A DNA stretch of 64,000 nt from Spirochaetota bacterium (lineage in GTDB: Bacteria > Spirochaetota > Spirochaetia > SPDA01 > JAJSAL01). The notes below the pieces were generated by a model. It was not told where the DNA came from. It ran no database searches and saw only the letters and a program-made list of their open reading frames with translations. A program made the translations under genes and the position numbers. Positions 6,269 to 27,508 of this stretch are shown piece by piece (positions within the stretch are counted from its first letter, which is position 1; each line of letters starts with the position of its first letter). The DNA lies in contig JAJSAL010000151.1 of NCBI GenBank assembly GCA_024274705.1, positions 19,857 to 83,856 of the forward strand, in the 5' to 3' direction.

Positions 6269-6283
6269 GGTTAGTTACCGCCC

Positions 6284-7627: not shown

Positions 7628-7664
7628 ACTCTTTCTCCTTATTCTGTATTAAAATTTTGTTCGT

Positions 7665-8510
7665 TTATTTTACCCGTAGATTACGGTTAACGATCTTTTC
7701 TATGCCCCTGATCTCTTCGATCCCGGCGTTATCGGTTTTGGACGCCAGTATGATATAGAGAGCACGTACCAAGGTAAGCTGGGCCACCATGGAATTGGAC
7801 TGGGCGAAATGTACCTGCCGCTCATGGCACGCAGTAAGCAGGATACAGTCCGACAGCTTTGCCAGGGCTGAATCTCCGTAGTTGGTCAGTGCAACGATGT
7901 ATGCTCCGTTTTGCCGGGCAAGTCCCGCCGCCTCTACCACCTGTTTCTGTCTCCCGGAATGGGAAATACAGAAAAAGACGTCGTTTTTGTGCCCGTGGCC
8001 CGCGCATACGAGCATCTCGTAGGGGTCGATAAGGGTCTTCGCCTTGTACCTGAGATGGGAAAGCTGGATCGCACCAAGCTGCCCTATCCTCCCGGATCCG
8101 CCTAAACCGAGGAAATAGAGCATATCGCACCGGCAAATCCTTTCCGCCACACCGGATACTGCAGTGAAATCCACAACGCCTTCAGTCGCCTGCAGATTGG
8201 TAACAGCTTCGGAAAATACTTTCCTGATGCTTAAAGAAGGTTCATCATCCCGGTTAAAAATAGGAAGAATCTGTTCCGGCTCGTAATGTAAATCCCGGGA
8301 AAAGGTGATTTTAAACCGCTTGAAGCTGTCATACCCTAAACGCTTGCAGAACCGTGATATCGATGCGACTGACGTGCCGATGGCACCTGCGATTTCTTCT
8401 ATAGAATTATTAAGCCCTTCGAAATCGATATCCAGAAAGTAATCCGCAATCTTTTTCTGAACGGGTTTCAATTCATTGTAGATCACTTTGATCTCTGTCA
8501 TGATAGACAT
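7665..8510 (-). CDS. RpiR-family transcriptional regulator (HTH + SIS)
   Basis: GTSVASISRFCKRLGYDSFKRFKI HTH and SIS domain FLGLGGSGRIGQ. Confidence 0.88.
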   Translation of the reverse strand: MSIMTEIKVIYNELKPVQKKIADYFLDIDFEGLNNSIEEIAGAIGTSVASISRFCKRLGYDSFKRFKITFSRDLHYEPEQILPIFNRDDEPSLSIRKVFSEAVTNLQATEGVVDFTAVSGVAERICRCDMLYFLGLGGSGRIGQLGAIQLSHLRYKAKTLIDPYEMLVCAGHGHKNDVFFCISHSGRQKQVVEAAGLARQNGAYIVALTNYGDSALAKLSDCILLTACHERQVHFAQSNSMVAQLTLVRALYIILASKTDNAGIEEIRGIEKIVNRNLRVK

Positions 8511-8562
8511 GGGTGCATCTTATGTAAAAAATTATTTTTCGTCAAGCAGTCAGATCGTTTAA

Positions 8563-8577
8563 TGTAAATTATTTTCA
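8563..8577 (-). promoter_or_regulatory. Candidate RpiR operator TGTAA-N5-TTTCA
   Basis: tgtaaattattttca upstream of rpiR start 8510; matches sites at 40032 and 40065. Confidence 0.45.
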
Positions 8578-8745
8578 CTTACCTGCCTTTTCACAGGGTC
8601 TACTATTGCAGGTCTTTTCTCCGTGCACATTCACGGACAAGACAGGTCTTCACTGGTGGGAGTCATGCCGCCGAATAAATCAATGGAATTTACCTGAGTA
8701 AAGTGGTATACTACCATATAAAAATTCCCATAGAAGGATTCAAAT

Positions 8746-10839
8746 ATGAAAAGAGTGGTCATTGTCATCCTTCTCGTATTTATGCCTTTCATCGCAACGG
8801 CACAAACGTATTCCTCTCTCCGCCTGCAGCTTACACCTAGACTTGAAATTCCTCTTGGCGGATACGCAGGCCGGTTCAACCCGGGTGCTGCCGGACAATT
8901 CTCTCTGGCGTATAAACCGCCCACCCGGTTCCCTGTTTACGTCGGAATCGATGCAGGATACTCCTACATACCGGTAAATCTCGAATGGAGCGCCCCTATT
9001 CATACTGCCATGGCAGGAGGCGGACTGGGACTGGATTTCAGGTTGCTCGGCAGGCTCGGTGCGGATATCTACGTAAAAGGCGGCTATTACCAGGGATTTA
9101 TCCGGGATCTCCAGGGTTCTGTCGTCCACGGGGGGAATCCCTACCTGGATACCGGAGCAATGTTCCGGTTTTACCTTTCCCCTGGTTTCCGGATCGGTAT
9201 CGGTTCTGCATACAGGGAATATTTCGGAAAACCGGAATCCCTGTACAGAAGTATCAGCTTCTTTTTAAGCGGGTCCTACAGGATCCCCCTGAAAGGGAGT
9301 GCGGAATTCGAACCTCTAGAGGCGGTACCCTCACGGCTCCAGCTCCAGGATATCGAGATAGGGAATATTTTCCCTGTTTTTTACAAGTATTATGATGATC
9401 ACCCCATCGGCAGCGCGGTTATTGAGAACAAGGAAAAAGGGACCGTTGAAAACATCGAAATTTCTGTTTTTATGAAGCAGTATATGGATTACCCCAAGAC
9501 ATACGGGATACAGGAACCGGTCAGAAAGGGAGAGAAACGTGCAATAGACCTTTTCGCCCTGTTCAACGAGAATGTCCTGATGATTACCGAAGGGGCCAAA
9601 GTGTCCGCTGAAATCAGTATAGAATACGATTTCAAGGGCAACAGGAAGCACGTTTCCAGGGTGGAAACCGTATCGCTTCAGAACCGGAACGCTTCTATCT
9701 GGGACGATGACCGGCGTGCTGCGGCGTTTATTACGGCGAGGGACCCGATAGTTCTGAGACTGGGTAAGAATATCGCAGGGATGGTAAGGGGAACTCCCAA
9801 CGATGTCCTGGGGAAAAACTTTATGCTTCTCCTGGCGATTCATAACGCCCTCTCCATGTACGGCATTTCCTACGTAATCGACCCGAACACTCCATATGAA
9901 GAGTTCCATAAAAAGGAGGAAGCTATCGATTTCCTCCAGTTCCCCAGGCAGACCCTGGAGTACAGGGCCGGCGATTGTGATGACCTTTCGATTCTCTACT
10001 CAGCGCTCCTGGAAGCGCTGAGTGTTGAAACTGCGTTTATCACTGCGCCGGGGCATATCTACATCGCTGTGAACCTGGGAATGGACGAGGAAGAAGCACA
10101 GAAGATTTTTTACCACACTGGGGATCTCATCTTCAGAGAGGGCAAGACCTGGCTTCCCTTCGAAGTAACCCTCGTGCAGGAGTCCTTCCTAAGAGCATGG
10201 CAGGAAGGGGCCCGGGAATGGAACAGGTACGAGCCCTCCGGAAAGGCAGCCTTCTATCCCGTGGCGGAGGCCTGGAAGGTGTTCGAACCTGTGGGACTGC
10301 CTGGAGATGCGGAAGGTGTCGTTCTGCCGGATACGAAGGATGTACAAAAAGTTTTTACCGCTGACCTTGCGTCCCTGGTTCAGCGGGAGATCGAAAACAA
10401 GCTGCAGGACCTCCGGGACCGGATAGCGGCAAGCAATAACAACTCGAAGCTGATCAACGCCCTGGGAATTCTGTACGCTCAATACGGCCTGCTGGATGAA
10501 GCCGAAGAACAATTCAAGGCGATTCTTAAAAAAACGGTATACCCTATGGCAATGGTCAATTTGGGGAATATCCGGTTTATCAGGAAGGATTTCGAGAAAT
10601 CGATGGAATACTACTCCGAGGCTTTGAAGATTTACCCGGACAGTCCGAAGGTGATGCTCAACCTCGCCAGGACGTACTATGAGCTCAGACGTTACGAAGA
10701 TGCCAGGAACTGGTATGAACGGGTTAAACCTGTTTCCCCCGCTCTGGCGGACCGTTACGCTTACCTGGGATCCGAAAAAACGTCGGGTTCCAGGGCTTCG
10801 GATGCAATGGGAAAAGGAAAGGTGTTATGGGAAGAATAG
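8746..10839 (+). CDS. Secreted/outer-membrane protein with transglutaminase-like and TPR segments
   Basis: Signal peptide MKRVVIVILLVFMPFIATAQ; beta-rich N-terminus; AGDCDDLSILYSALLEALSVETAFI...HIYIAV; C-terminal TPRs. Confidence 0.7.
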   Translation: MKRVVIVILLVFMPFIATAQTYSSLRLQLTPRLEIPLGGYAGRFNPGAAGQFSLAYKPPTRFPVYVGIDAGYSYIPVNLEWSAPIHTAMAGGGLGLDFRLLGRLGADIYVKGGYYQGFIRDLQGSVVHGGNPYLDTGAMFRFYLSPGFRIGIGSAYREYFGKPESLYRSISFFLSGSYRIPLKGSAEFEPLEAVPSRLQLQDIEIGNIFPVFYKYYDDHPIGSAVIENKEKGTVENIEISVFMKQYMDYPKTYGIQEPVRKGEKRAIDLFALFNENVLMITEGAKVSAEISIEYDFKGNRKHVSRVETVSLQNRNASIWDDDRRAAAFITARDPIVLRLGKNIAGMVRGTPNDVLGKNFMLLLAIHNALSMYGISYVIDPNTPYEEFHKKEEAIDFLQFPRQTLEYRAGDCDDLSILYSALLEALSVETAFITAPGHIYIAVNLGMDEEEAQKIFYHTGDLIFREGKTWLPFEVTLVQESFLRAWQEGAREWNRYEPSGKAAFYPVAEAWKVFEPVGLPGDAEGVVLPDTKDVQKVFTADLASLVQREIENKLQDLRDRIAASNNNSKLINALGILYAQYGLLDEAEEQFKAILKKTVYPMAMVNLGNIRFIRKDFEKSMEYYSEALKIYPDSPKVMLNLARTYYELRRYEDARNWYERVKPVSPALADRYAYLGSEKTSGSRASDAMGKGKVLWEE

Positions 10840-12149
10840 GCAAACTGTCCGGCGTGCTGGTATTACTCCTATTGACTGCAGGGTGCCGGAATTCTCTCCA
10901 GGAATACATGGAAACAAACCTTTTCGGCCCCCCCTACTATCTGGAAGTTGCAAAGCTTTCCGCCGAAGGGGCCATCGATTTCGGTTTTTCCGTAGACATG
11001 GACGGGGATTATATCATCGTCGGAGCACCGGCTGAATCTGACAACACCACGAACCCCGAAGCCGTGTACATTTATCACAGAACCGCGATGGATGAATGGG
11101 ATTCCGGGTTTAAAATCGTTCCTTCCGATTGGCAGGAAGGTGACAGGTTCGGGTACTCCGTCGCGATAAACGGTGATTATGCGGTTATCGGGGCTTACCG
11201 CAAAGCTGTATACAACCCTTCCTTAGGAGCAGACCAGGAGGCTGCAGGGGCGGCCTATATCTACAAGCGGACGGAAACGAACACCTGGACGGAGCAGGTG
11301 AAACTGACCCAGCAGGACCCATGGGCGGCAGAGATCCAAATCGAGGCCCGGGATTATGCGCTCTTCGGCTGCACCGTTAAGATGTACGGCAACTGGATCT
11401 TCATCGCAGCCCGGCAGGACGATGGTACCGATGCCCCGGACAGTTCATACGGTTCCGTGTACGCTTTCAAAAACACGGGAACCTGGACGTTCAGCGAAAT
11501 GCTCACCGCCGGACCGGGCAAGGAGAGCGGAGCAGGTTTCGGATGGTCTTTGGATGTAAACGGAGATTACGTCGCCGTGGGAGCACCGGGGGAAGATATC
11601 GGCGGCATCAATAAGGTAGGGGCGGTGTATCTTTTCCAATTCCTCGTTGACGGGTGGGAGCTTGATACGAGGATCATCGCCCCGGACGGAGAGGTTCGTG
11701 ACAGCTTCGGCATGAGCGTCGCCGTCAACAACGAATACCTGACCGTTGCCGCGCCCCAGAAAACCGTCGGCGGCGCTGATTTTTCAGGAAAGGTATACAT
11801 TTTCGAAAGGGAGGATTCCGGTTCCTGGGGTTCCTCTCCGGTAGCTGAGCTGACACCTGATACCCCGGGAGAGAACGATTTCTACGGCTTCCCGGTTGCC
11901 ATGCACGGGGATACCCTCATGGCCGGCTGTTTGTTCAGGGACGACGCTGCAACGGACGGTGGTGCCGTATATATATACAACCCCGTTTCCGGGGGAGGCT
12001 GGGAACTGCAGAAAACACTGACCCCCTCGGACGCAACAGAAAGTACGTATTTCGGCAGGTCTATAGTAATCGGTGATACCTACGCCGTAATCGGGGCAAC
12101 CCACACGTACGAGTACCACGCAACCGGTGCTGTCTACCTGTTCAGGTAG
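10827..12149 (+). CDS. Lipoprotein with FG-GAP/beta-propeller repeats
   Basis: Lipobox LLLTAGC; repeated D(G/N)DY(I/V)(I/A)VGAP...GAVYI(Y/F) units. Confidence 0.75.
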   Translation: MGRIGKLSGVLVLLLLTAGCRNSLQEYMETNLFGPPYYLEVAKLSAEGAIDFGFSVDMDGDYIIVGAPAESDNTTNPEAVYIYHRTAMDEWDSGFKIVPSDWQEGDRFGYSVAINGDYAVIGAYRKAVYNPSLGADQEAAGAAYIYKRTETNTWTEQVKLTQQDPWAAEIQIEARDYALFGCTVKMYGNWIFIAARQDDGTDAPDSSYGSVYAFKNTGTWTFSEMLTAGPGKESGAGFGWSLDVNGDYVAVGAPGEDIGGINKVGAVYLFQFLVDGWELDTRIIAPDGEVRDSFGMSVAVNNEYLTVAAPQKTVGGADFSGKVYIFEREDSGSWGSSPVAELTPDTPGENDFYGFPVAMHGDTLMAGCLFRDDAATDGGAVYIYNPVSGGGWELQKTLTPSDATESTYFGRSIVIGDTYAVIGATHTYEYHATGAVYLFR

Positions 12150-12264
12150 TGCCGGGGATATCGTAATCATCATTACAGAACCACCTGACACCATCCCGTT
12201 CACTCTGTTGAAACATTGACTCCTCATCTAATTTCACCTACTATGAATCGTAACGGAACTCACT

Positions 12265-12657
12265 ATGGCTGAACGAAGCGGAGACTGGATAAGACAGGCT
12301 GAAAGAGATATGGAAAGCGCAAAGGCGCAAGCCCGGGATGAGTTCCACGAATGGGCTTGTTTCATCTCGCAGCAGGCAGCCGAAAAAGCGTGTAAAGCTG
12401 TCTTTCAGAACTGGGGTGCAGAAGCCTGGGGACATTCGGTTTCCAATCTGATAAAGGGAATGAAAACTAAGTGCGATATCTCAGAAGAAATCAGCGATGC
12501 CGCCCGAAACCTGGACAGGTATTATATACCGAGCAGATATCCAAACGGTTTTGATTCCGGGACACCGGCAGATTACTTCACAGGGGAAGATGCAGAACAT
12601 GCAATCCGTGATTCAGAAAGAATCCTTCTATTCTGTAAAGATCTTCTGGCTCGATAG
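12265..12657 (+). CDS. HEPN-domain protein
   Basis: WIRQAERDMESAKAQ...ISQQAAEKACKAVFQNWG...NLDRYYIPSRYPNG. Confidence 0.8.
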   Translation: MAERSGDWIRQAERDMESAKAQARDEFHEWACFISQQAAEKACKAVFQNWGAEAWGHSVSNLIKGMKTKCDISEEISDAARNLDRYYIPSRYPNGFDSGTPADYFTGEDAEHAIRDSERILLFCKDLLAR

Positions 12658-12997
12658 GATCGAATTAAGAAGTCGGCTCGAATACTCGGCATCCCGGATA
12701 CTTCACGGAAATCCTCTGGTACGAAAAATCATCCTTTTCGGTTCAGTTGCCATGAACAGGGCTACGCCTGCAAGTGATGTGGATATTGTGATCGTCACTG
12801 AAGAAAGCGATAAGCGTTTCATGGATCGATCGATGGATTTTCTCGATTGTTTCCCGGGTATTGATCTCAGCGTCGACATATTTGTGTATACAGGAAAAGA
12901 AATAGAAAATAATCCACCACCCATTTATCTGACTGCAGCAAAGACCGGTATCCTGCTTGCCGAAAGAACCGTATTGACGCAAAAGCGGAGCCATTGA
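12599..12997 (+). CDS. MNT-type nucleotidyltransferase (start approximate; ORF open from 12497)
   Basis: ILFGSVAMNRATPASDVDIVIV nucleotidyltransferase motif; overlaps HEPN gene. Confidence 0.75.
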   Translation: MQSVIQKESFYSVKIFWLDRIELRSRLEYSASRILHGNPLVRKIILFGSVAMNRATPASDVDIVIVTEESDKRFMDRSMDFLDCFPGIDLSVDIFVYTGKEIENNPPPIYLTAAKTGILLAERTVLTQKRSH

Positions 12998-13068: not shown

Positions 13069-13725
13069 TTACGAGGCTTGTTTCCGGCAGAATTCTATAA
13101 AAGCCAGGATATTCTCCATCGGCACGTCTTCCTGGACCAGGATTCCCGGTGTCAAAATAAATCCACCATTTTTCCCAAGTTTTCTGACAAGGGTGCGGGC
13201 TTCTTCGACAACTTCTTCGGGTTTACCAAAAGGCATCGTATTTTGTGTGTTCATACCGCCGATAAAGGTTATATCCCCGCCAAACTGTTTCTTCAGTTCG
13301 AAGATATCCATAACCTCCGGCTGCATCGGATCAACAACTGTTATCCCCAATTCAATGATGTCGGGAAAAATTTCGGAAATATTGCCGTCGGAATGCAAAA
13401 ATATATCCACATTCCCGGTCTGCTTAATCCGCCGGCATAATTCACCGATCCTCGGTTTAATGAGTGACCGCCATCGATCCCGGCCAAGCATTATTCCACG
13501 CTGATCTCCCCAATCGTCATTGATCTTCAGTGCATCAATGTCATATTTCAGGAGCTGCCTTGCAATACCCCAGGCGTACTCTACAATCATATCGAGAAGC
13601 TCATTGACAAATTCCGGTGCGTCGTATATATCCATCATGAATTCAGTCATTCCCCGTAGATTACATGCGCGCTCAATGAGTGTATGGTTTCCCAAACTTG
13701 CAAGAGTATACTTGTTGCTGTTTTG
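13069..13725 (-). pseudogene. 5'-truncated URO-D superfamily gene
   Basis: Only the C-terminal ~2/3 of a URO-D (ERACNLRGMTEFMMDIYDAPEFV...HSDGNISEIFPDIIELGITVVDPMQPE); in-frame TAG at 13726-13728; no ATG start. Confidence 0.65.
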
Positions 13726-13804: not shown

Positions 13805-14581
13805 CTACTTATTGTACATAGTCCTGCCGCCGTCTGCCAGGATCTCCTGTCCGCAGATGTAGTCTCCGAACCCGCTGGCGAGGAATACAACAAGCCCGGC
13901 GATATCCTCAGGTTTTCCAAAACGGCCTACCGGAATCTGGGCCTCCAGTGTACGCCGTTTTTCCGGGTCGTTGTACCGCTCCTTCAGGAGGTCCGTTTCG
14001 ATAACACAGGGATGGATGATGTTGGTTCGGATCCCTCTTCTGAGGTACGCCCTGCACAGGTAGGTCATCATACCGGTCATACCTGCCTTGGCAGCGGCAT
14101 AGTCCAGGCCCCCCCCTCCCCCGTCGAACACAGCGGAAGAGCCGATGAGGATGATCTTCCCATAGCCTGCGGCTGCCATGAGTCCTAAAACCGCCCGGAC
14201 ACCGTAAAATGCCGAAGTCAGGTTGATATCGATAAAACTCTTCCAGTCCTGGTCGGTAATTTCTTCAGGTAAACGTGCCAGATTACGGCCCACGTTGCAC
14301 ACCAGGATATCCAGGCCCCCCTTTTCACTTACGATCCGCCGTACCAGATCTTCCGTACTTTTCGAGTCCAAAGCATCCAGGGCGACACCCAGGGCTTCAC
14401 CTCCCTCCGAGGATACCCGGTCCACCAGGTCACTGATCCGTTCGGCATTGTCCGGGTTGCCGGTATGGGTAAAATAGACGGCTGCCCCCGCGCAGGCCAG
14501 CATCTCGGTTATGGAAGCGCCTATCCCCCGGCTTCCCCCCAAAACTAAAGCGACTTTATCCTGTAAATCTATTGTGAACAT
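13805..14581 (-). CDS. Short-chain dehydrogenase/reductase
   Basis: ALVLGGSRGIGASIT; LDYAAAKAGMTGMM. Confidence 0.88.
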   Translation of the reverse strand: MFTIDLQDKVALVLGGSRGIGASITEMLACAGAAVYFTHTGNPDNAERISDLVDRVSSEGGEALGVALDALDSKSTEDLVRRIVSEKGGLDILVCNVGRNLARLPEEITDQDWKSFIDINLTSAFYGVRAVLGLMAAAGYGKIILIGSSAVFDGGGGGLDYAAAKAGMTGMMTYLCRAYLRRGIRTNIIHPCVIETDLLKERYNDPEKRRTLEAQIPVGRFGKPEDIAGLVVFLASGFGDYICGQEILADGGRTMYNK

Positions 14582-14583
14582 TC

Positions 14584-15369
14584 CTACCCCTCCAGCTTAT
14601 AAACTTCCAACGCGTTATCACGCAGGATTTTCCTTTTAAACGATGTGCTTATATCCGCCAGAAATACACGGGTCAAATGGGAGCGGAGATCCATCCATGG
14701 ATAATCTGTTCCAAAGAGTATCTTATTTTCCGGAACCTGCCGTTCCATATTTTCGAAGTACTGATAACAATAGATATCGCCGCCGAAATCCATATATACA
14801 TTTTCATATTCGTTAACCATTCGAATTGCCTCGAACCTTCCGGTCCCCCGGCCGCCGGAGTGACCCAGCACAAACCGTACGCCCGGATATTTCTTTACAT
14901 ACTTCTCAAATTTCTCAGGTGTGGAGAGTACCTGGGAAGGATTGTAGCTGGACACACTCCAGGTATGGGCAACAATGGGAATATCAAAATCCGATGCAAT
15001 TTTCCACACAGGGTCATAACCCTCATCATCAGCCGGGGTGTTGTTAAATGAGGGATGAATCTTGATTCCCTTGAAACCTGCCTGAGACACGGCTTTTTTT
15101 AATATCTCAATATCTTCCTCCCATCGACGCGGATCATAAAACCCGCAATAAAAAATCCTGCCCCCGGATTCTTCGAATTCCTGTTGTGCTTTTTCAAGTT
15201 CTATGGACTGATAACCATGGAGAGTCCGCATTGAGCATAAATTGATTGAATAGTTAACCTGTAACTGGTCCATACGCCTGAGCATAGCCTGCGCGTCAAT
15301 TTCGGGAGAAAAAAAGATATTCGGGAATCCAGTGTGCGCATGAGCGTCGATAATGAAAAGGTCTTTCAT
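14584..15369 (-). CDS. Amidohydrolase-2 family protein
   Basis: FIIDAHAHTGFPN...GIKIHPSFNN...HSGG...FGTDYPW. Confidence 0.85.
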   Translation of the reverse strand: MKDLFIIDAHAHTGFPNIFFSPEIDAQAMLRRMDQLQVNYSINLCSMRTLHGYQSIELEKAQQEFEESGGRIFYCGFYDPRRWEEDIEILKKAVSQAGFKGIKIHPSFNNTPADDEGYDPVWKIASDFDIPIVAHTWSVSSYNPSQVLSTPEKFEKYVKKYPGVRFVLGHSGGRGTGRFEAIRMVNEYENVYMDFGGDIYCYQYFENMERQVPENKILFGTDYPWMDLRSHLTRVFLADISTSFKRKILRDNALEVYKLEG

Positions 15370-16175
15370 ACCCTTACCCCTTTGATGATCTGTCTTAAGT
15401 TTCCGCCTGATATCATTTTTTTCTCATTATCCGATATATCCGCATCCAGAATCATTCCCATGGACGCAAAGGGATCGTTAACAGGAAGAAATGATCCGAA
15501 TATCAGCCTTTCCGCTCCAAAGGTTTTCACAGCGTGGGTGATAAAATCCTGTCCGATGAAATTGGATGTTTCCAGCAGCACATTGTTACAGGACTCCATC
15601 AGGCTGTACAGGTTCCTGTTGTGGTAAAGGATCTTTTGCCACTGGGTTTCCACTATTATATTCAGCTTCGGGAATTTTTTTGCCAGTACATAGACATGGT
15701 TCCAGTCAACTTCAATATGCCAGAAAAAAAGAGGAACAGCATGCCGTATGCACCATTCACACAAAGTGCCGATAACCCAGGGTGACAAAAGATACTTATG
15801 GGTTTTCGGGAAGAGGCGGACACCCCGGAGCCCTGGAGGGGGAGCATTAAAACCTGGCAGAGGGTCCTGTTCATGTGGTGAGAGTGGCAGTCCTGTCCAG
15901 ATTGTATAGATTGCTTCAGGAAGATATTCCTGTAACTCCAGCAGTGCATGGTTACCGTCCTGCGCGGAAATTTTTGGCGAATCCCAGTGGGAGATAAGAC
16001 CGCCCTCGAGATGATATTTGCTGCAGACCTCTTCCAGATCATTTGGGTGAAGCTCTGATGCGATTGGAAAAAAATCCGGCTCCCCGAGCCATATATTAGC
16101 ATCAAAAAACTGCAGCTCTTTAACTTTATCACGTTTTTTACGGGACATATCTTCCATGACCTTCTCAATTTTCAT
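15366..16175 (-). CDS. Amidohydrolase-like TIM-barrel protein (divergent)
   Basis: FFDANIWLGEP...WHIEVDWNHVYVLAKKFPKLNIIVE...ERLIFGSFLP; 4-bp overlap with neighbours. Confidence 0.65.
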   Translation of the reverse strand: MKIEKVMEDMSRKKRDKVKELQFFDANIWLGEPDFFPIASELHPNDLEEVCSKYHLEGGLISHWDSPKISAQDGNHALLELQEYLPEAIYTIWTGLPLSPHEQDPLPGFNAPPPGLRGVRLFPKTHKYLLSPWVIGTLCEWCIRHAVPLFFWHIEVDWNHVYVLAKKFPKLNIIVETQWQKILYHNRNLYSLMESCNNVLLETSNFIGQDFITHAVKTFGAERLIFGSFLPVNDPFASMGMILDADISDNEKKMISGGNLRQIIKGVRV

Positions 16176-17617
16176 AATGTTCTCCTGTTTTGATTCCCTG
16201 GGTTATATATTTCCCCTGCAAAGCTGTTTTTAATAAGCTCATTCAGTTCGCTTACGGAACCAACAGCACCAGTTGCAATGAGCTGTATGCCGATATTCCC
16301 AACCGCTGTTGCTTCCGCGGGACCGGTAACCACAGCGATGTTGGCCGCGTCTGCTATCATCTGACAGAGAAAAGCGTTCTTCACTCCCCCTCCGAGAATG
16401 ATAAGCCGGTTTATTTTCCTGCCGGTAATTTCTTCCAGGTCCGAAACAGCAGCACCGCAGGAGGAAGCGAGATTTTCAAAGATACTCCGTACTATTTTCC
16501 CCCTTTCTACAGGTAATTCCTGTTCTGTTTTCCGAAAATATTCTTTAATCGTTGCGCTCATAGTTACCGAAGAGAAAAAAATCGGATCATTTACCTCTAA
16601 ATCCAGAGAGAACCGAGGCTGATCTATTGCCTGCTGTATGAGAGTATCATAAGAGCAATCACTTGATTCAAGCTTCCAGGTATTGATAAGACCTTCAAGA
16701 ATGTAAAAACCCATCATATTTTTTGCGAAAAGGATCGAGTGTACCGCGATTTCATTCACAAAGCCTCTGCGGAATCCGAGTGGGCCTGTCTCAGGCTCTT
16801 TCAGCAAGGCGCCGAAGACAAACCAGGTTCCCGTGGATAGAAAAGCTGTATCCTCCCGTGTATCAAACACAGAAACCGATGTGCTGATGGTATCATGACC
16901 TGCAACTGCGATAACCGGCGCCGATTCAATATCCGTGTAAGCTTTAACTTCCTGCAGAAGATCTCCTGTATACGTTCCGGGTGAGACAATAGACGGGAAA
17001 ATGCCCGCCGGCAGCCTGAACAGATCTATCAATTTTTTGTTCCATCCCCTGGTGCGTATATCCAGAAGTTGAGATCCCCAGAGGATGGTTTCCTCTCCCT
17101 GCGCAATACCGGTAAGAAAATACCTGATGAGATCCGCCAGGGGGAGGTATTTTGCAGCAATATCCAAAATCGGATCGGTTGATTTATTCTTCAAATGCAC
17201 CAGCCTTGATAATCCGGTAATAGTACTGAATCCGCATCCTGCTTTTTTAAAGAGAGATTCTTCATCAATAGTTTGTTTAATGAGCTTTTCAACCGCAGCG
17301 GGGCAAGGTTCTCTGTAGGATATCGGATTTCGCAGCAGAGTTCCGGATTTATCCAGAAGCCCAAAATCACAGTTAAAGGTATCTATTCCTATACCTGCAA
17401 GTTCTCTTACACCCGTAGCAGCACATTTTTTTAGGGATTCCAGGATATTGTCCCAAATACATAACAAATCCCAGTATAAAGTGCCGCCAAGCATGACCGG
17501 TTTAATATCAAATCTGTGTATTTCCTTAAGCCTTAAGAGACCGTCAGCTGCGTATCCAAGAATTGCCCTTCCGCTTGCAGCCCCGATATCGAATGCGAGA
17601 TAGGGTTTATCTGCCAT
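16172..17617 (-). CDS. FGGY-family carbohydrate kinase (rhamnulokinase-like)
   Basis: LAFDIGAASGRAILGY...LKEIHRFDIKPVMLGGTLYWDLLCIWDNI...VAGHDTISTSV. Confidence 0.87.
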   Translation of the reverse strand: MADKPYLAFDIGAASGRAILGYAADGLLRLKEIHRFDIKPVMLGGTLYWDLLCIWDNILESLKKCAATGVRELAGIGIDTFNCDFGLLDKSGTLLRNPISYREPCPAAVEKLIKQTIDEESLFKKAGCGFSTITGLSRLVHLKNKSTDPILDIAAKYLPLADLIRYFLTGIAQGEETILWGSQLLDIRTRGWNKKLIDLFRLPAGIFPSIVSPGTYTGDLLQEVKAYTDIESAPVIAVAGHDTISTSVSVFDTREDTAFLSTGTWFVFGALLKEPETGPLGFRRGFVNEIAVHSILFAKNMMGFYILEGLINTWKLESSDCSYDTLIQQAIDQPRFSLDLEVNDPIFFSSVTMSATIKEYFRKTEQELPVERGKIVRSIFENLASSCGAAVSDLEEITGRKINRLIILGGGVKNAFLCQMIADAANIAVVTGPAEATAVGNIGIQLIATGAVGSVSELNELIKNSFAGEIYNPGNQNRRTL

Positions 17618-18731
17618 TAATCATCATCCATTTCTGTTCCAGGTAGTATGTAAAATTATCCAGGGGGACATCCGGTGGTACCGAGTGATCTACAGTGGGA
17701 ATATACCCTCCCCTTTCCAGCATCGACGGGATGATAGTTTCAATTTCGGTATCGATCTCTTTCCTGCCTTTTGCCAGTTCCCTCTTGTCTATTCCCCCGA
17801 TCATGAAAAATGACTTCCCGTATTTTTTCCGCAGTTCAACCGGATTGAGTCCTGCAGCTCTCTCAATCGGACCGAACCCTTCGACACCTGCGTCGAGAAA
17901 ACCGGGAATGAGCACTTCAAAATTTCCGTCGGTATCAACAATGATGTTCTTAACACCGCACTTTTTAAGGAAATCCACATACTTCCGGTAATAGGGGCTA
18001 AAAAACTCTCTGAATAGTTCCGGGGAAACGAGAGGTCCGGACTTGCCCGCCATATCCTCGTGGATGTAATAGAGATCAAAACCGGCCTCCCTCAGCGGTT
18101 TTCCCATCCACCCTGTGATAAATTCGGTAAGAAATTCGAGGCACTCATGAACGAGACCGGGATCATCGTAGAACATGTACGAAAGACCTTCCGTTCCCAT
18201 CCAGTTTCTGAGCATGCTGTAATACCCGAAACTGGCAAAGTATCGATCCAGGAACGTGGAAGGACGTGCTGATTTCCTTAAGTGTTGAAGAACCTGATCC
18301 CAGTTTGGGGGAAGTCTCCCGGTATGGTTGGTTTCATATCCTTTTTTAATGCGAAGGAAATCTTCCCTATTTTTCACCGGAAAGTCTATATAATTATCCA
18401 TGCTTGCCCGCATGGTCTTCACTGTACCTTCTTTCAGTGCCACCCTGGTCCTCCCCAAACCGTCGATGAACCGTATATACCGGTGGTCCTCACTTAGTTT
18501 CTTTTCCTTTGGACACGGTTCCGGGAAGGTCATATTGAAGAGAACCAGGTCGTATCCTTCAAGACCGAAATATTCATTCCCGGTAAACAGGTCCGCGTCG
18601 GCGGCGGATTCGGGAAGTCCCTGGTTCTGCCACTGTTCCGCGGTCTGTTCCCATAAGGCGATCTCGAAAAAGGGAACACGGTCGGCGCTTTTGAATTGGA
18701 GTGTATTATTGAGGCGTTCTTTTTGAGTCAT
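17607..18731 (-). CDS. URO-D superfamily protein
   Basis: NTLQFKSADRVPFFEIALW...IIVDTDGNFEVLIPGFLDAGVEGFGPIERAAG; overlaps kinase gene by 11 bp. Confidence 0.82.
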   Translation of the reverse strand: MTQKERLNNTLQFKSADRVPFFEIALWEQTAEQWQNQGLPESAADADLFTGNEYFGLEGYDLVLFNMTFPEPCPKEKKLSEDHRYIRFIDGLGRTRVALKEGTVKTMRASMDNYIDFPVKNREDFLRIKKGYETNHTGRLPPNWDQVLQHLRKSARPSTFLDRYFASFGYYSMLRNWMGTEGLSYMFYDDPGLVHECLEFLTEFITGWMGKPLREAGFDLYYIHEDMAGKSGPLVSPELFREFFSPYYRKYVDFLKKCGVKNIIVDTDGNFEVLIPGFLDAGVEGFGPIERAAGLNPVELRKKYGKSFFMIGGIDKRELAKGRKEIDTEIETIIPSMLERGGYIPTVDHSVPPDVPLDNFTYYLEQKWMMINGR

Positions 18732-18799: not shown

Positions 18800-19615
18800 T
18801 CAGCACAGGGTCATCTGTATCCCGGCTTCGGCGAAATGTTCAACCGTTACCCTATCCAGTTCTCTGCCGGTAATTATTTCGTTGAAGGCGGTTATATCCG
18901 AAACTTTCAGAAACGACGTTTTGTTGAATTTGGAAGACATAATCAATCCCACGGTTTTATCAGCACACCTTTCCAGAATAATTTTGGTAACCGCGCTTTC
19001 ATTCACATCATCGGCAGTGATGCCCGCCTCCATGTCTATGGCTGTTACAGAGAGAAACGCTATGTCCACTTTTATACTCTGAAAGGTACTCATGGCTGTC
19101 GGCCCGAGGAGGAAGGACTTATACACATTGAGCAGACCGCCGGAGAGAAGGATTTCAAAATCCTTGTTGTACTGTTCGGTAAGTTCCGCCATACGCATGG
19201 CAATCATGGGAGAAGCTGTCACAATTTTCAAATGATCTTTATCAATAAGATTCTCTACAAGGGCCAGGCATGTACTTCCGGACTCGATAATAATAAAATC
19301 GCCGTCGGAGATCAGTTCTGAAGCTTTGGATCCAATCCGGTTCTGCTCATCCGTTAACATTTTTGAAGCTTGAGAAGCACGGGGAGAAACTACAATGTGA
19401 GAAAGGGAGACTGCCCCGCCCCTTACCCTTTTGAGCAGACCCTCATCTTCCAGCTTTTCAAGGTCTCTGCTTATAGTCATTCTGGAAACCGGGAATGCTT
19501 CTGCCAAGGCATCCACAGTGATGGATTTACGGGTGTTTACAATGTCCAGTATTTTCTTCCTTCTATCAAAGGACAACATCTGACCATCTTTTTCATAATT
19601 TGTATCTTGTGCCAT
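18800..19615 (-). CDS. DeoR-family transcriptional regulator
   Basis: RRKKILDIVNTRKSITVDALAEAFPVSRMTISRDLEKLEDEGLLKRVRGGAV. Confidence 0.9.
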   Translation of the reverse strand: MAQDTNYEKDGQMLSFDRRKKILDIVNTRKSITVDALAEAFPVSRMTISRDLEKLEDEGLLKRVRGGAVSLSHIVVSPRASQASKMLTDEQNRIGSKASELISDGDFIIIESGSTCLALVENLIDKDHLKIVTASPMIAMRMAELTEQYNKDFEILLSGGLLNVYKSFLLGPTAMSTFQSIKVDIAFLSVTAIDMEAGITADDVNESAVTKIILERCADKTVGLIMSSKFNKTSFLKVSDITAFNEIITGRELDRVTVEHFAEAGIQMTLC

Positions 19616-19651: not shown

Positions 19652-20422
19652 TTACCCGGCTTCATCATCGTGTTCGTTATTGCCGGCTCCGACAAACATA
19701 AATTTCACAATTTCATCCTGATTCGTTTGGGAGGTTTCCTTCACAGCGACGATCTCTCCATGTTTCAGAACGAAAATACGGTCAGCCACGGTAAATATAT
19801 CGCTTAATCTGTGACTGATCAATATAACGGAAATTCCCTGATTCTTCAGCCTGATAACCAGGTCCAACACTTTCTGAATTTCTTTTAAGGCAAGACTCGC
19901 GGTCGGTTCATCCAAAATGAGAATTCTTGGATTAAAACTAACCGCTTTTCCAATTGCAACAGCCTGCTGCTGCCCTCCGGACAGTTTATCCACCTTCCTC
20001 CGTGGATTATCTATTTCTATCCTGAGATCGTGCAGTATTTCTACCGTTCTCGCATCCATTCTCTTTCTGTATAAAAATTTCAAAACCCTGTCTCGCATGA
20101 GTTCTTTACCCAGAAACAAGTTTTCTGTCACAGAGAGGTTTTTACACAATTCAAGATCCTGATAGACCATTTCGATGCCAAATCGTTTTGATACACGGGG
20201 GCTGTCAATTACAACCTCTTTCCCTTCGATTAAAATTGTGCCACGATCTGCCTGATGAAAACCGGTCAGGATTTTCATCAACGTTGATTTCCCCGCCGCA
20301 TTATCCCCCACAAGACCTAAGATTTCTCCATGCTTAAGGTCGATGCTGAGATCTTTCAGGGCCTGCACTCCTCCGAATGATTTATCGACATGTTTCATTT
20401 CCAGTAAAAAACCAGTTCCCAT
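19652..20422 (-). CDS. Sugar ABC transporter ATP-binding protein, single ATPase domain (FrcA-like)
   Basis: Walker A GDNAAGKSTLM, LSGGQQQAVAIGKA, LILDEPTASL; only one ABC domain in 256 aa. Confidence 0.88.
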   Translation of the reverse strand: MGTGFLLEMKHVDKSFGGVQALKDLSIDLKHGEILGLVGDNAAGKSTLMKILTGFHQADRGTILIEGKEVVIDSPRVSKRFGIEMVYQDLELCKNLSVTENLFLGKELMRDRVLKFLYRKRMDARTVEILHDLRIEIDNPRRKVDKLSGGQQQAVAIGKAVSFNPRILILDEPTASLALKEIQKVLDLVIRLKNQGISVILISHRLSDIFTVADRIFVLKHGEIVAVKETSQTNQDEIVKFMFVGAGNNEHDDEAG

Positions 20423-20435: not shown

Positions 20436-21407
20436 TTACCCTTTTATTTTAAATCCGCCGCCTTGGAGAGTATCGACGTATACCGCGAGCATTAACACTG
20501 CACCTCGTACTATCATCTGGTAGAAGGTCTGGACACTCAGGAGCACCATTCCGTTATTCAGCACTGCAAGGATCAGCACCCCTAACAAAGTACCGAGAAT
20601 ACTTCCCTTACCGCCTGCCAGGCTTATTCCTCCTAATACAACCGCGGTAATTACATTCATAAGAGCCGACGTTCCAGCCGACGGAACAGCTACCCCGACC
20701 TGGGATACATAGGTGATGGCAGCCACTCCTGCAGCCGCGGCACTCACAATCATCCCCCAGAACCTCACCATTCTTACATTTATTCCCGAAATGTAGCTTG
20801 CTTCTGCATTGCCTCCGACTGCATAGATCCTCTTTCCATACACGGTAAATTTTAGTATTACATACACTAAAGCGAACACAAAAACCATAATATAAATACT
20901 TATTGGTATTCCCAGCAATCTTCCAGACCCAATTACCGAAAAGAAATGACCCGATACCCCTAATACTTTAGTTTCGGTGATCATGTAGGCCAGACCCCTG
21001 AATATCAGCATTGTTCCCAGGGTAGTAATAATCGGATTAATTTTCAGAAAAGCAACGGAAAACCCGTTTACTGCACCACACGCCAATACGATGCTTAATG
21101 CAATTATGATTGACAGGAATACTGCCACTCCGCTTCTTACAAGTATAGCCAGCACCCCTGTTGAAAAAGCGAGGACAGCATACTGGGAAATATCTATCTG
21201 CCCCATCAACATGGTGACAAACAGCCCCGCTGCCATGATTCCTAATATGGCTGTAGCCGAAAGAAAGTTCAGTATATTCTTGATTGTTAAAAAATAGGGA
21301 GAAGTAATGGAAAAAAACAGACACAAACCAAATAAAGCTATCAGCAGGCTCAGTATTACTCCGGATTCCTCAATTATCAGTCTGATTCGCAATCTTGTGT
21401 TGGTCAT
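20436..21407 (-). CDS. Ribose-type ABC transporter permease
   Basis: RbsC-like, ITAVVLGGISLAGGKGSILGTLLG. Confidence 0.9.
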   Translation of the reverse strand: MTNTRLRIRLIIEESGVILSLLIALFGLCLFFSITSPYFLTIKNILNFLSATAILGIMAAGLFVTMLMGQIDISQYAVLAFSTGVLAILVRSGVAVFLSIIIALSIVLACGAVNGFSVAFLKINPIITTLGTMLIFRGLAYMITETKVLGVSGHFFSVIGSGRLLGIPISIYIMVFVFALVYVILKFTVYGKRIYAVGGNAEASYISGINVRMVRFWGMIVSAAAAGVAAITYVSQVGVAVPSAGTSALMNVITAVVLGGISLAGGKGSILGTLLGVLILAVLNNGMVLLSVQTFYQMIVRGAVLMLAVYVDTLQGGGFKIKG

Positions 21408-21462: not shown

Positions 21463-22482
21463 TCATTCGCCGGGATAATACTCGTCAATATTATCCTTGG
21501 TTACAACGACATGTTCCATCAGAATCTCTTTAGGAGCATCTCTACCTTCAAGAATATCAACGAGAACCGGGATGAGGTAATCCCCATATTTTTCAGGTTG
21601 GTAGGCAACGGATCCAATCCAGAGGTCCCCTTTTCCAGCCCGTATTTTTTCCCGAAACGGGCTATCCGCTCCATGTGAGACAATGAGAACATCATTTTCT
21701 CTGCCTTGGGTCTCAACGGCTGAAAGCGCACCCACCCCCCCCTCATCATTATTGGAAGCAACAACGATATGGGTCATATCCGGATGTGCAGTAAGAAAAT
21801 CGGTAACGAATTGCCTGGTTACTGTTGTCGGGTCAGGCATAGTATCATAGGAAAAAACATTGTCTTCCGAAAATTCCGGATGGGTTTCACGGTAACCGTC
21901 TACCACTCCCTGCATTCGCAAAAAGATGGTTTCTCCGACAACCGGTGGGAAACCGAGAACGATTGCATCCACAACGCCTCCCCACCGCTTATCAACTTCC
22001 CCTGCTAAAAACCTGCCAAGTATCAGTCCGGCACCATAATTATCTGCACCGAAATAATATGCTCCGTCGACTTTATAATCTCCTGTGATCATCACAATGT
22101 CCGGATTTTCATCCATGAATTTCTTCGTTACATCGGGGGTCCAGTTAAACTCGAATATAGCATCAACTCCCTGAATCACGAATGTATCAAGATTGCTCTT
22201 AATCCTTTCCGGTTCCATCTGTGCTTCCGCATACAAAACTTTAATCCCATATTTTGCTGCGGCATCTTCGATCGACTGATGTACTTTGTAACAGAATTCA
22301 AATGAATCCATGTAGTTATTAATACCCAACACAAATGGTTCTTTTTCTGCCTCTGCTGGCGCGGCAACTGCCTCTGCTGGTTCTGCCTCCTGCTTTCCTC
22401 CAGCGAAGGCGAAACCAGTCACTATTAAAAAAACAATGAAGCTAAGCAGTAGGTGAAATACAATCTTCCCGTTTCGTTTCAT
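21463..22482 (-). CDS. Sugar ABC transporter periplasmic-binding protein (PBP1 fold)
   Basis: Signal peptide FAFAGGKQEAEP; PBP1-type sequence; ORF extends to 22566 but MKRNGK start preferred. Confidence 0.85.
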   Translation of the reverse strand: MKRNGKIVFHLLLSFIVFLIVTGFAFAGGKQEAEPAEAVAAPAEAEKEPFVLGINNYMDSFEFCYKVHQSIEDAAAKYGIKVLYAEAQMEPERIKSNLDTFVIQGVDAIFEFNWTPDVTKKFMDENPDIVMITGDYKVDGAYYFGADNYGAGLILGRFLAGEVDKRWGGVVDAIVLGFPPVVGETIFLRMQGVVDGYRETHPEFSEDNVFSYDTMPDPTTVTRQFVTDFLTAHPDMTHIVVASNNDEGGVGALSAVETQGRENDVLIVSHGADSPFREKIRAGKGDLWIGSVAYQPEKYGDYLIPVLVDILEGRDAPKEILMEHVVVTKDNIDEYYPGE

Positions 22483-22647: not shown

Positions 22648-23841
22648 TTATCCTATCGGGCCGAATTCTTCCGATTTTTTCGCAATGAACTTCAACCTCT
22701 CCAGGTCCGCATCCGGAGGCGTGGTATCGCTTATACTCAATACTATTTTGCACCCGCTTCCTATGCTTTCGAATGTATCGCCAATCAGTTTTTCAAATGC
22801 GTTGTCATTCATGGAATTTTTCAGTACACAGATAGACGGAAGTCCACCGAAAATCGCAACATCTTCACCCAAAGATTCCCTGATTTTTTTCAGAGAGAGA
22901 TTAGTCATAGGATGGGGGCATATGGAGTCTGCTATATGCATACCGCTTTTTCTGTACATTTTCAGCAGGCCGGTGTTTTCCCCGTCAGGATGAGCCGCTA
23001 ACATTTTTCCCCTTTTCTCCAGATATTCTGCTCTACCTTTCATATCATCCAGGATAAACTCTTGAAAAAAATAGGGAGGGGTTATGATAGTATTAAAATT
23101 GGTACCGGACATGATTATTTCCGCGGGGCTGTCAACGGTAACCTCAAAAGCAGCGTCATAAAACACTGCTACTTTCCGGGCAAACTCCAGCATATCCTGC
23201 TTATAGTCGGTGAGAGTATAGTAAAAATTCTCCAGCCCCATTAACACCCTGAGGATGAAATGCATCGACGAGGCGCCAAAGGAATGAAATGCTGCAACCA
23301 CTCCCCTGTCACCCACGTATTCGACCATTTCGTTATACCCGTCGTAAAAAGGCACAACCTCCGCATGCTCGAATATATATCCAGCCGCCTTCAAATCATC
23401 GATGCCCTGAACAGGATACTTCCGTACAAAGGGAGCAGTAGCACCGCTTGTTTTAACTCCGTCATCGAGTACCGACTCAGTTGTGATGTCTCCAAACGGT
23501 GTTGAGTAACGGGTGCCCAGTGATCCCCTGCCGCGCTGCGTTTCAACGGCTATATTGTGCAGCTGCACCCTGTATGGACAGGTTTTAAAAGTGTAAAAAC
23601 CCAAAGGGTAATGCACGTCATGTCCTCCAGGCTCATCCAGGTCATTGAAATCAGGTATCATGTAGTGGTATCCCAGTTCCAGATCGTCCAGAATATCACG
23701 GAGACTTGCGTCTTTGTACATAGAAGGGAGTTTGTTTAAAAACTTGTTTGAATTATACCAGATATCCATCCGCGGCACGAAAGGAAGGTGCGGTAAAGGT
23801 TCACCTTTCGCGGCTTTAATCATAGATTTTTTTATACTCAT
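22648..23841 (-). CDS. URO-D superfamily protein
   Basis: URO-D-like; LAAHPDGENTGLLKMYRKSGMHIADSICPHPMTN. Confidence 0.72.
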   Translation of the reverse strand: MSIKKSMIKAAKGEPLPHLPFVPRMDIWYNSNKFLNKLPSMYKDASLRDILDDLELGYHYMIPDFNDLDEPGGHDVHYPLGFYTFKTCPYRVQLHNIAVETQRGRGSLGTRYSTPFGDITTESVLDDGVKTSGATAPFVRKYPVQGIDDLKAAGYIFEHAEVVPFYDGYNEMVEYVGDRGVVAAFHSFGASSMHFILRVLMGLENFYYTLTDYKQDMLEFARKVAVFYDAAFEVTVDSPAEIIMSGTNFNTIITPPYFFQEFILDDMKGRAEYLEKRGKMLAAHPDGENTGLLKMYRKSGMHIADSICPHPMTNLSLKKIRESLGEDVAIFGGLPSICVLKNSMNDNAFEKLIGDTFESIGSGCKIVLSISDTTPPDADLERLKFIAKKSEEFGPIG

Positions 23842-23854: not shown

Positions 23855-24820
23855 TCAGGAAGTGATCAATTCCCTTAAATACTGGTGCACATGCATGGTC
23901 TTCCCATCTTTCCTTAAGCTCTCAAATTCACCGTTTCCTACAAGCCTGTCCGCCAGGTCGATAAACCACCTGATCCTCTTCACGCTCTCTTCCAGGGCCT
24001 TCCTTCCATCCACCCGGGAGGGCCAGATATCGATGTCGTACCATTCGTTGTATCCGATTTTCCGGAGGGCATAGAAGAATTCCAGGGTTTCAAAGAAATG
24101 GATGCTGCCTAAAAGCAGATCGTCATCCCAGGACCTGTAATTATCATTTACATGGATGTCGAACATCCTGCCGAACATGGCAGCGAATTCCACCGCTTCC
24201 GCGGGATTTTCACCCGCTGCCAGGGAGTGCCCCAAATCTACGGTGACACCCACATTCGGTTTATTGATTTTTTCACAGATCGCAACGGTTGTGCCTACCG
24301 TATTGAAATGCTGATGTGTCCTCGGTTCTTTCGCCTTGTACTCGATGGCGAGCTTTACATCACTTCTGTACTCCGCTGCTTCCGTTAGGGAATCCAGCAG
24401 CCAGTTCCACTTGATCGTGTAATCATCCTCAAAGGGATAATCGAACCCGTCGTGGGCCAGCCATATCAGGACATCATACGCGTTCAGTTCCGCAGCCAGG
24501 TCCATCGATTTTTTGATTTCTCCTAAGTATTTTCGTCTTATCTTCGGATCCCGGCTGGAGATGGTACCTGTCTTTTGTTCCGCCTTGAGGTATGTATCAG
24601 GACAGACACAACCCACCATCATATGATGTTCCTCTATTTTCTTTTTGATCAGGTCCAGTTCTTCACCGCCGGCGGCAATCATCCCGATACCGTTGATGCC
24701 GTCAATGTTCGCGAACTCATCGATCATCCCGGGGAAGGTCAGCCCCTTTCGATAGCCCTTTGTTACGAACCTGTCTTCACAGGGGGAAAACGCCGCTCCC
24801 GCAGCTTGGATTTTCAACAT
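23855..24820 (-). CDS. Sugar phosphate isomerase/epimerase (xylose isomerase-like TIM barrel)
   Basis: AIEYKAKEPRTHQHFNTVGTTVAICEKINKPNVGVTVDLGHSLAAGENPAEA. Confidence 0.85.
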   Translation of the reverse strand: MLKIQAAGAAFSPCEDRFVTKGYRKGLTFPGMIDEFANIDGINGIGMIAAGGEELDLIKKKIEEHHMMVGCVCPDTYLKAEQKTGTISSRDPKIRRKYLGEIKKSMDLAAELNAYDVLIWLAHDGFDYPFEDDYTIKWNWLLDSLTEAAEYRSDVKLAIEYKAKEPRTHQHFNTVGTTVAICEKINKPNVGVTVDLGHSLAAGENPAEAVEFAAMFGRMFDIHVNDNYRSWDDDLLLGSIHFFETLEFFYALRKIGYNEWYDIDIWPSRVDGRKALEESVKRIRWFIDLADRLVGNGEFESLRKDGKTMHVHQYLRELITS

Positions 24821-24840: not shown

Positions 24841-26169
24841 TCACTTCACCGACACCAGGGCTTCCCGGAGTACTTCCAGAACTCTGTCTGCTTCTTCTTC
24901 GGTAATGACAAAAGGCGGTTTTATTTTGAGTACATTTCTTTTCATGCCCCCCACCCCGAAGATCACGCCATGGTCCATTGCGAAAGAACGTACCCCACTC
25001 AGCCGTTCCCCGTCGGCTTCTTTCGTAACAGGATCTTTGACGAACTCCACCCCGATGTGGAGCCCTGCCTGGCGAACATCACCAATCCCGGGGAACTCCT
25101 TCTGCAGCATCTTAAGCTGCTGCCTTAAGTAATTCCCCATGCGGTTACAGTTTTCCAGGATCCCGTTTTCCAGCATTTCAATCAACTTAAGAGCCGCAAC
25201 CTGGGAGACCGTGTTATTGGCAAAGGTGTGAAGTTCCTCGGAATCGGGAGAGAACCCTTCAAGGTCATCGCTTATCAACGTGGCGGCTATGGGATAGCCC
25301 GCGCCTAAGCCCTTACCCAGGCATATGATATCCGGCTCTACACCATAATAGCCACTGGCAAACCAGGTTCCGATCCGGCAGTATGTCTGGATTTCGTCCC
25401 AGATCAATGGTATGCCGTATTCATCACAGGTATCCCGCACTCCTTGCAGGTATTCCTTCGGGAAAATGATCTGTCCACCGCTAGCCTGCAGGGGTTCCAT
25501 CAGGATTCCGGCAACCGGTCCGTTTATTCCTTTTTCTATGGTTAACTTTAATATCCTGAGACACATCATGCCGCAGGAGCCCTTTTCCAGTTCAAGGGGA
25601 CACCGGTAACAATATGGGTTGGGTACCCGGATAAACTGCCTGGACAGCCTGGTAAAGCGGGAACCGCCGATAAATTTTCCCATCGAGCGGGTGGATATCC
25701 AGCTGGAACCCATGGTCCCCAAACTCGTGCCGTGGTATGCATCATAGAGGGAGATAAACTCCCGGGCTTCAGGACGGTTTTTAAGGGCGATCTTCAGCCC
25801 CCCCTCCACCGCTGCGGAGCCTCCTACGGTGAAGGATACGCGGTTGATTTTTTTCGGAGCCAGCCCGGTCAGCTTTTTTGCCAGGGCGAAACGGGAGGGG
25901 GTGTCGAACCCCTGGTGGACGTGTGTGATGTTCCTGGTGTGCTCGCATACGGTCCGGGTCAGTTCTTCATTGGCAAAGCCGAGATACATTGCCCAGCTCT
26001 GGGATGTACAGTCGATGTATTTTTTTCCATCTATATCTTCCAGCCACACACCTTTACCCCGGATAATCATCGGGGCCGGCCTTGTACCGCCGCCGATCAT
26101 CAAATGCCTGGAATACGCCCTGATATCCTCTTTTTTCATTCCATAGAGACTTTCAAGCATGGGGTCCAT
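24841..26169 (-). CDS. Class III PLP-dependent aminotransferase
   Basis: IWDEIQTYCRIGTWFAS...CLGKGLGAGYPIAATLIS; start MDPMLES preferred. Confidence 0.88.
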   Translation of the reverse strand: MDPMLESLYGMKKEDIRAYSRHLMIGGGTRPAPMIIRGKGVWLEDIDGKKYIDCTSQSWAMYLGFANEELTRTVCEHTRNITHVHQGFDTPSRFALAKKLTGLAPKKINRVSFTVGGSAAVEGGLKIALKNRPEAREFISLYDAYHGTSLGTMGSSWISTRSMGKFIGGSRFTRLSRQFIRVPNPYCYRCPLELEKGSCGMMCLRILKLTIEKGINGPVAGILMEPLQASGGQIIFPKEYLQGVRDTCDEYGIPLIWDEIQTYCRIGTWFASGYYGVEPDIICLGKGLGAGYPIAATLISDDLEGFSPDSEELHTFANNTVSQVAALKLIEMLENGILENCNRMGNYLRQQLKMLQKEFPGIGDVRQAGLHIGVEFVKDPVTKEADGERLSGVRSFAMDHGVIFGVGGMKRNVLKIKPPFVITEEEADRVLEVLREALVSVK

Positions 26170-26180
26170 TATCCACTCCT

Positions 26181-26220
26181 TAAACATATTATAACAAATT
26201 TAAACTTTTAATAACATTTA
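26181..26220. promoter_or_regulatory. Phased ~10-bp repeats (putative DeoR operator)
   Basis: taaacatatt ataacaaatt taaactttta ataacattta; same unit and phasing as 22581..22620. Confidence 0.4.
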
Positions 26221-27279: not shown

Positions 27280-27508
27280 AGCGTTATAATATCCCCAGCC
27301 GGCACGTTTTGTAAATATGCCGTCCGCCTCGGTTTTAAGTATATTCAACGGGAGGAGATATGGATGAAAACACGGAAGTTATTGTCCGGGCAGGGTGTAA
27401 TGTTCACGGGTTCGGAGGAAGAGAACTGGCCGTGGATTTATCCCCGGAAGGAGATAACGGCGAAGATGTAACGGTCATTTTCTAGCAGAAATTCCTTAAA
27501 AAGTTTGT

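Follow-up and report, generated by a model that had tools for sequence, protein, structure and literature searches.

We analysed a 64,000-nucleotide window of the genome of a Spirochaetota bacterium (GenBank assembly GCA_024274705.1, contig JAJSAL010000151.1, positions 19,857 to 83,856 of the forward strand) that contains a minus-strand gene array headed by a gene for a protein of the uroporphyrinogen decarboxylase (URO-D) superfamily, here named URODa. The locus is a sugar-catabolism operon, and the conclusion that URODa is a sugar-pathway enzyme is well supported. Our proposal for its role, to which we assign a probability of about 0.4, is that URODa would catalyse corrinoid-dependent O-demethylation of a methylated sugar, ahead of the kinase and an aldolase. 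This proposal is based on the linkage of URO-D genes to sugar genes, on a fold nearest that of the methyltransferase MtaA, on replacement of the Cys metal ligands, on a corrinoid methyltransferase gene set elsewhere in the genome (contig C27), and on the co-occurrence of URO-D genes with RACo. A preliminary description of the locus had merely hinted at this role, the one that best fits the URO-D protein, by mentioning O-methyl substrates.

Linkage of URO-D genes to sugar genes

The array reads, in 5′ to 3′ order, URODa (17607–18731), an FGGY kinase resembling rhamnulokinase and fuculokinase (16172–17617), two amidohydrolase-family proteins, AH1 (15366–16175) and AH2 (14584–15369), and a short-chain dehydrogenase/reductase (SDR) oxidoreductase (13805–14581). 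URODa and the kinase overlap by 11 bp, whereas the kinase and AH1, and AH1 and AH2, each overlap by 4 bp; the SDR start lies 2 bp past the AH2 stop, which is a gap rather than an overlap. The positions of the open reading frames bore out the order, strand and 11-, 4- and 4-bp overlaps given in the preliminary description. Pfam matches of all five proteins exceeded the curated cut-offs (URO-D, 66.7 bits, aligned to the model's C-terminal half; FGGY_N and FGGY_C, 82.4 and 76.2 bits; Amidohydro_2, 34.5 bits for AH1 and 108.9 bits for AH2; adh_short_C2, 167.5 bits). Good ribosome-binding sites precede AH1, AH2 and the SDR gene. The kinase gene has only a weak one, in agreement with translational coupling of the kinase to URODa.

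The genome assembly (198 contigs, 96.6% complete and 7.7% contaminated) contains 70 URO-D matches, or about 70 genes, and most of these adjoin Rbs- or Mal-type sugar transporters, FGGY kinases, SDRs, isomerases or aldolases. A neighbouring URO-D gene was found at 6 of the 30 FGGY loci, compared with approximately one expected for an assumed 4,000–4,300 genes; one of the six URO-D genes (on C95) is a broken copy. Genes for URO-D, FGGY kinase, a FucI-like isomerase and an aldolase are grouped together both on contig C111, where the isomerase was assigned by eye, and in G171:C54, G171 being a genome from a different family of the class. The URO-D proteins of these two loci, which fall in the same clade as URODa, are 63% identical and the kinases 64%. 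Contig C120 carries a further block, in the order E1, URO-D, sugar ABC transporter, class III aminotransferase, SDR, double amidohydrolase, SDR, URO-D and E1, that is syntenic in two other genomes, G171 and G195. Taken together, the FGGY neighbours, the C111 and G171:C54 groupings and the C120 synteny support the view, already taken in the preliminary description, of URO-D as an enzyme of the pathway.

The five-gene array itself was not found elsewhere in searches from AH1, URODa and the kinase, and no relative of the kinase was found at E ≤ 1e-90 among 296 other genomes of the class. What recurs are modules: AH1-AH2, AT3-XI-AH1-AH2 (AT3 and XI being an aminotransferase-fold enzyme and a xylose-isomerase-like protein encoded upstream of the array), URO-D-FGGY-FucI-aldolase, and URO-D-AT3-amidohydrolase-SDR. 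Hence neighbourhood conservation, which had been put forward as a check, holds for the modules but not for the exact array. A distant Actinomycetota locus has AT3, class II aldolase, DeoR, AH1, AH2, sugar ABC transporter and SDR genes, with no URO-D gene in the 16.8 kb of sequence covered.

The window contains other URO-D-like genes. A remnant of a third URO-D gene lies 3′ of the SDR gene (13069–13695, minus strand); it matches only positions 153–345 of the 346-position Pfam profile and aligns from about residue 150 of its closest intact paralog, and its N-terminal half is absent from all three frames upstream. Two further URO-D genes lie at 525–8510 (minus strand) beside genes for the E1b, E1a and E2 subunits of a 2-oxoacid dehydrogenase and an RpiR regulator, and this region also encodes a RuBisCO-like, MtnW-like protein that scores below the cut-off. 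A 461-residue protein with no Pfam or NCBIfam match, UroD-like by eye, is encoded at 56991–58376 (minus strand) and adjoins a URO-D gene at 55811–56941; its relatives in G231, G280 (58%) and G120 are likewise near URO-D genes.

URODa and the corrinoid machinery

Judged by its sequence, URODa is not HemE. It scored 25.4 bits with the hemE model TIGR01464, for which the cut-off is 303, and a regular-expression search of 68 paralogs did not find the N-terminal MRQxGR-type signature in URODa; FERQAG was present in one other paralog, on C111. The best URO-D match in the genome reached 218.6 bits, as against 391–416 bits for the top matches in the class, which look to us like true HemE. That URODa serves as the cell's heme-pathway URO-D, or is a hitchhiker outside the sugar pathway, is therefore very improbable: a porphobilinogen deaminase is encoded in the genome, but the low hemE score, the missing signature, the roughly 70 copies and the recurrent FGGY neighbours all argue otherwise.

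An AlphaFold model of URODa (pLDDT 90.6) has the UroD barrel fold. Its top TM-score was to MtaA (4ay7, 0.66/0.72), with HemE structures at or below 0.62/0.65; ranking by Foldseek E-value, unlike ranking by TM-score, placed several HemE entries first. In the paralog tree, URODa belongs to a six-member clade (SH-aLRT 99) that shares the motif D-[TS]-D-G...D-H. Ligand positions were read from alignments. The His-Cys-Cys set of MtaA is retained in 4 of 60 paralogs, and in most a Cys is replaced by Asp, Asn or His. The columns that read HIC...C in the four MtaA-like paralogs read Hx[CD]...[HN] in most paralogs and DxD...H in the URODa clade. URODa itself has Asp266, Asp268 and His349; Asp268 stands in for Cys and the His ligand is likewise exchanged for Asp. 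O-methyltransferases of the UroD superfamily have carboxylates in place of Cys, whereas S-methyltransferases retain Cys (PMC10418091).

The same site can be read differently. Asp in place of His, together with the acidic set conserved in the clade (WEDMAxKxGP...DxDG...DH), resembles a Mg/Mn-type site more than a zinc-methyltransferase site, and URODa may instead be a metal-dependent lyase, decarboxylase or epimerase acting on a sugar or sugar acid, with no methyl group or corrinoid involved. HemE, which shares the fold, is a decarboxylase, decarboxylases occur among the relatives of AH2, and no corrinoid gene is adjacent. However, this tenable if doubtful alternative leaves the strong co-occurrence with RACo and the C27 operon, both described below, unexplained, and the nearest fold is that of a methyltransferase.

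The genome encodes a corrinoid protein, a methyltetrahydrofolate methyltransferase and RACo, with seven corrinoid-protein matches and four RACo matches in all; most of the corrinoid proteins adjoin MttB-like or unassigned methyltransferases. On C27 (positions 490–12682 of locus L091), a single same-strand run encodes a ROK regulator, a sugar ABC transporter, URO-D, a corrinoid protein, a methyltetrahydrofolate:corrinoid methyltransferase and RACo, and is thus a complete corrinoid methyltransferase set inside a sugar operon; its URO-D protein is without the usual HxCG motif. Of 118 genomes of the class, 37 have at least 10 URO-D candidates, and RACo was present in 35 of these; it was present in 12 of the 31 genomes that have one to nine candidates and in none of the 50 without any. 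These counts are of first-look candidates and uncorrected for shared ancestry. RACo was also present in 9 of 10 sampled genomes with a relative of URODa.

A corrinoid-independent methyltransferase, passing the sugar methyl group directly to tetrahydrofolate or a thiol, would need no such partners. Cobalamin-independent methionine synthase transfers a methyl group from methyltetrahydrofolate, and enzymes of this type stood at ranks 26, 29 and 30 of the URODa fold matches, with no corrinoid partner gene adjacent to URODa. We nevertheless consider this role unlikely, as an ether is chemically difficult to cleave unless Co(I) is available, the likeness to MetE is much weaker (E approximately 1e-4, TM ≤ 0.41) and the corrinoid machinery co-occurs.

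In the O-demethylation that we propose, the ABC importer encoded upstream of URODa, under a DeoR regulator, would take up a sugar derivative. A divalent metal held by the oxygen-rich ligands Asp266, Asp268 and His349 of URODa would activate a methoxyl group of the imported sugar, and the methyl group would pass to a corrinoid protein and then to tetrahydrofolate, with corrinoid partners and RACo presumably supplied in trans from C27, C138, C51 and C75. After isomerisation of the freed sugar, the FGGY kinase would phosphorylate it and the class II aldolase would cleave it. With rather less assurance, we suggest that the URO-D expansion as a whole (about 70 genes here and at least 10 candidates in 37 of the 118 genomes) could be a family of O-demethylases that depend on corrinoid proteins and act on methylated sugars or cyclitols, every member being matched to a dedicated transporter and kinase/aldolase operon while a few corrinoid proteins are shared among them.

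Several observations weigh against O-demethylation by URODa. A corrinoid gene next to URO-D might have been expected, and there is none in the URODa array or next to most paralogs, C27 being the exception; seven corrinoid proteins for 70 URO-D proteins would require heavy sharing in trans. URODa scored 36.9 bits with the MtaA/CmuA model TIGR01463, well under the cut-off of 235. The first ligand is His in 50 of the 60 paralogs and Asp in the URODa clade, so that zinc binding by URODa is only putative. Besides the uncorrected shared ancestry, part of the RACo correlation is inherent, as one widespread, conserved RACo locus includes a URO-D gene of its own. Finally, in the library searched we found no literature on URO-D expansions or on sugar O-demethylation by URO-D proteins, and a search by accession yielded PMC10418091 as the one relevant paper.

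The transcription unit and its other enzymes

The same-strand run is longer than had been described. Genes for a sugar-binding protein (Peripla_BP_4, 91 bits, 21463–22482), an ABC permease of the RbsC type (BPD_transp_2, 130.7 bits, 20436–21407), a single-domain ABC ATPase (113 bits, 19652–20422) and a DeoR-type sugar-phosphate regulator (DeoRC, 118 bits, and HTH_DeoR, 58 bits, 18800–19615) lie 5′ of URODa on the minus strand with gaps of 13–68 bp, and the five-gene array is the 3′ end of this longer unit. The binding protein, permease and ATPase constitute an Rbs-type sugar ABC transporter. A sigma-70 promoter, TTGACA-N16-TATAAT, directly precedes the binding-protein start (22582–22555, minus strand); it matches the consensus at 12 of 12 positions, and such a promoter turned up in 1 of 300 dinucleotide-shuffled versions of the region. 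It probably marks the start of the transcription unit. Because of its position, the binding protein probably starts downstream of it, at the ATG at 22482 behind AAGGAG, rather than at the GTG of the open reading frame list.

Upstream of this promoter, the preceding minus-strand unit begins with AT3, a class III pyridoxal phosphate aminotransferase-fold enzyme (24841–26187), followed by XI, a xylose-isomerase-like TIM barrel that would be an isomerase or epimerase (23855–24820; Pfam 94 bits; PDB 3ktc, 2.5e-42), and URODb, a second, divergent protein of the UroD superfamily (22648–23841; 28.0 bits). A FucA/OtnC-like class II aldolase (26452–27348, minus strand; Pfam 164.4 bits, also identified by NCBIfam) lies 264 bp upstream of AT3 and, given this gap, may or may not share a transcript with the genes downstream.

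The kinase scored 317.5 bits with the rhamnulokinase model TIGR02627, under the cut-off of 528, and its top PDB match was the L-fuculose kinase 4c23 (5e-76); it falls below both equivalog cut-offs, for rhamnulokinase and for L-fuculokinase. The SDR has the glycine-rich NAD site GGSRGIG and the active-site motif YAAAK (YxxxK) of classical SDRs. Its GC content is 0.56, and that of the other array genes and of the genes for the transporter is 0.43–0.48, so the SDR may be a later addition to the array.

Alignment showed that AH2 keeps the metal ligands of the Amidohydro_2 family (HxH, His, His and Asp). In contrast, AH1 retains none, with DANIW in place of HxH, ETQ in place of the later His and GSF in place of GTD, while its AlphaFold model (pLDDT 88.8) has the amidohydrolase fold and matches the COG3618 protein 4dlf and the Bifidobacterium amidohydrolase 6uvz. 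Adjacent AH1-AH2 pairs were found in G036 (twice), G082, G171 and an Actinomycetota contig. In G036 the AH1-AH2-AT3-XI cluster occurs twice in the same order, with AT3 proteins 76–77% identical to that of the window. At six further loci (G115, G177, G002, G195, G171 and C120 of this genome) AH1 and AH2 are a single protein of 526–564 residues. The first half or gene of every pair is without HxH and, where the end could be read, without the Asp of GTD, and the second keeps HxH; for the G171:C63 amidohydrolase only HxH could be checked, the remainder being frame-shifted or N. Loss of ligands together with fusion ahead of AH2 argues for one active site rather than two steps, with AH1 as a probable pseudoenzyme partner of AH2.

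These findings bear on the route put forward in the preliminary description, in which the SDR oxidises the sugar, both amidohydrolases hydrolyse either a C-C bond or a lactone, and the kinase adds a phosphate, with an unspecified step left to URO-D. Pairs of an SDR and an Amidohydro_2 lactonase are known from the oxidation of L-fucose and L-rhamnose, and the matches of the AH1 model to 4dlf and 6uvz would agree with such a route. Catalysis by both amidohydrolases was nonetheless rejected, as every AH1 relative examined lacks HxH along with the later His and Asp. We regard this route as a whole as improbable, given also that an oxidised sugar acid is not obviously suited to a ketose kinase. In the O-demethylation pathway, AH2 with its metal-free partner and the SDR would probably form an oxidation and lactone-hydrolysis branch.

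Other parts of the window were also inspected. A second E1a/E1b/E2 block with an RpiR gene lies at 33650–40032 (minus strand); within it, 33650–34804 encodes a protein that looks like an aldose epimerase, has no Pfam match, and has relatives (38–42%) in the URO-D/FGGY region of G171. Downstream of the operon on the plus strand are a gene for a protein with six FG-GAP_2 repeats (10827–12149) and a toxin-antitoxin-like HEPN and nucleotidyltransferase gene pair (12265–12997).

Comparison with known systems

Proteins such as URODa are labelled URO-D though they cannot be heme enzymes. Their association with sugar operons and with the corrinoid machinery provides a function that can be tested, for a large branch of the UroD superfamily to which none has been assigned. 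The proposal points to anaerobic use of methylated plant or algal sugars and, if true, would constitute an anaerobic route for O-methyl sugars that is not described in the literature we found. The conserved pairing of a pseudoenzyme with an enzyme among the amidohydrolases is a second, smaller finding.

The closest structural comparison is with the methylcobamide:coenzyme M methyltransferases MtaA and MtbA, whose three ligand columns align with those of URODa. However, identity is only about 17%, and URODa has Asp-Asp-His, no adjacent corrinoid protein and a sugar rather than a C1 context. The phenolic O-demethylase methyltransferases OdmB and VdmB of acetogens, here likened to URODa by their description, also belong to the UroD superfamily, whose O-methyltransferases have carboxylate-substituted metal sites (PMC10418091). 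They need a corrinoid protein, methyl transfer to tetrahydrofolate and a RACo-type activator, all of which are encoded in this genome; they act on aromatic ethers, whereas URODa sits with genes for sugar transport, a kinase and an aldolase. Type 1 mlp gene clusters likewise combine UroD-superfamily proteins with a corrinoid protein and an activator in bacteria (PMC10418091), but have sulfur or selenium genes and His-Cys-Cys sites, a motif that only the four HICG...C paralogs resemble here.

The locus shares with the rhamnulokinase/L-fuculokinase-FucA aldolase pathway a kinase nearest 4c23 and nearby class II aldolase and isomerase genes, and differs from it in its xylose-isomerase-like isomerase, extra URO-D protein, aminotransferase and amidohydrolase pair. 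Finally, AH2 keeps the HxH, His, His and Asp ligands of the Amidohydro_2 decarboxylases and lactonases (gamma-resorcylate decarboxylase, 5-carboxyvanillate decarboxylase and the COG3618 lactonase), but unlike these it is paired with a ligand-less paralog, to which it is fused in six other loci.

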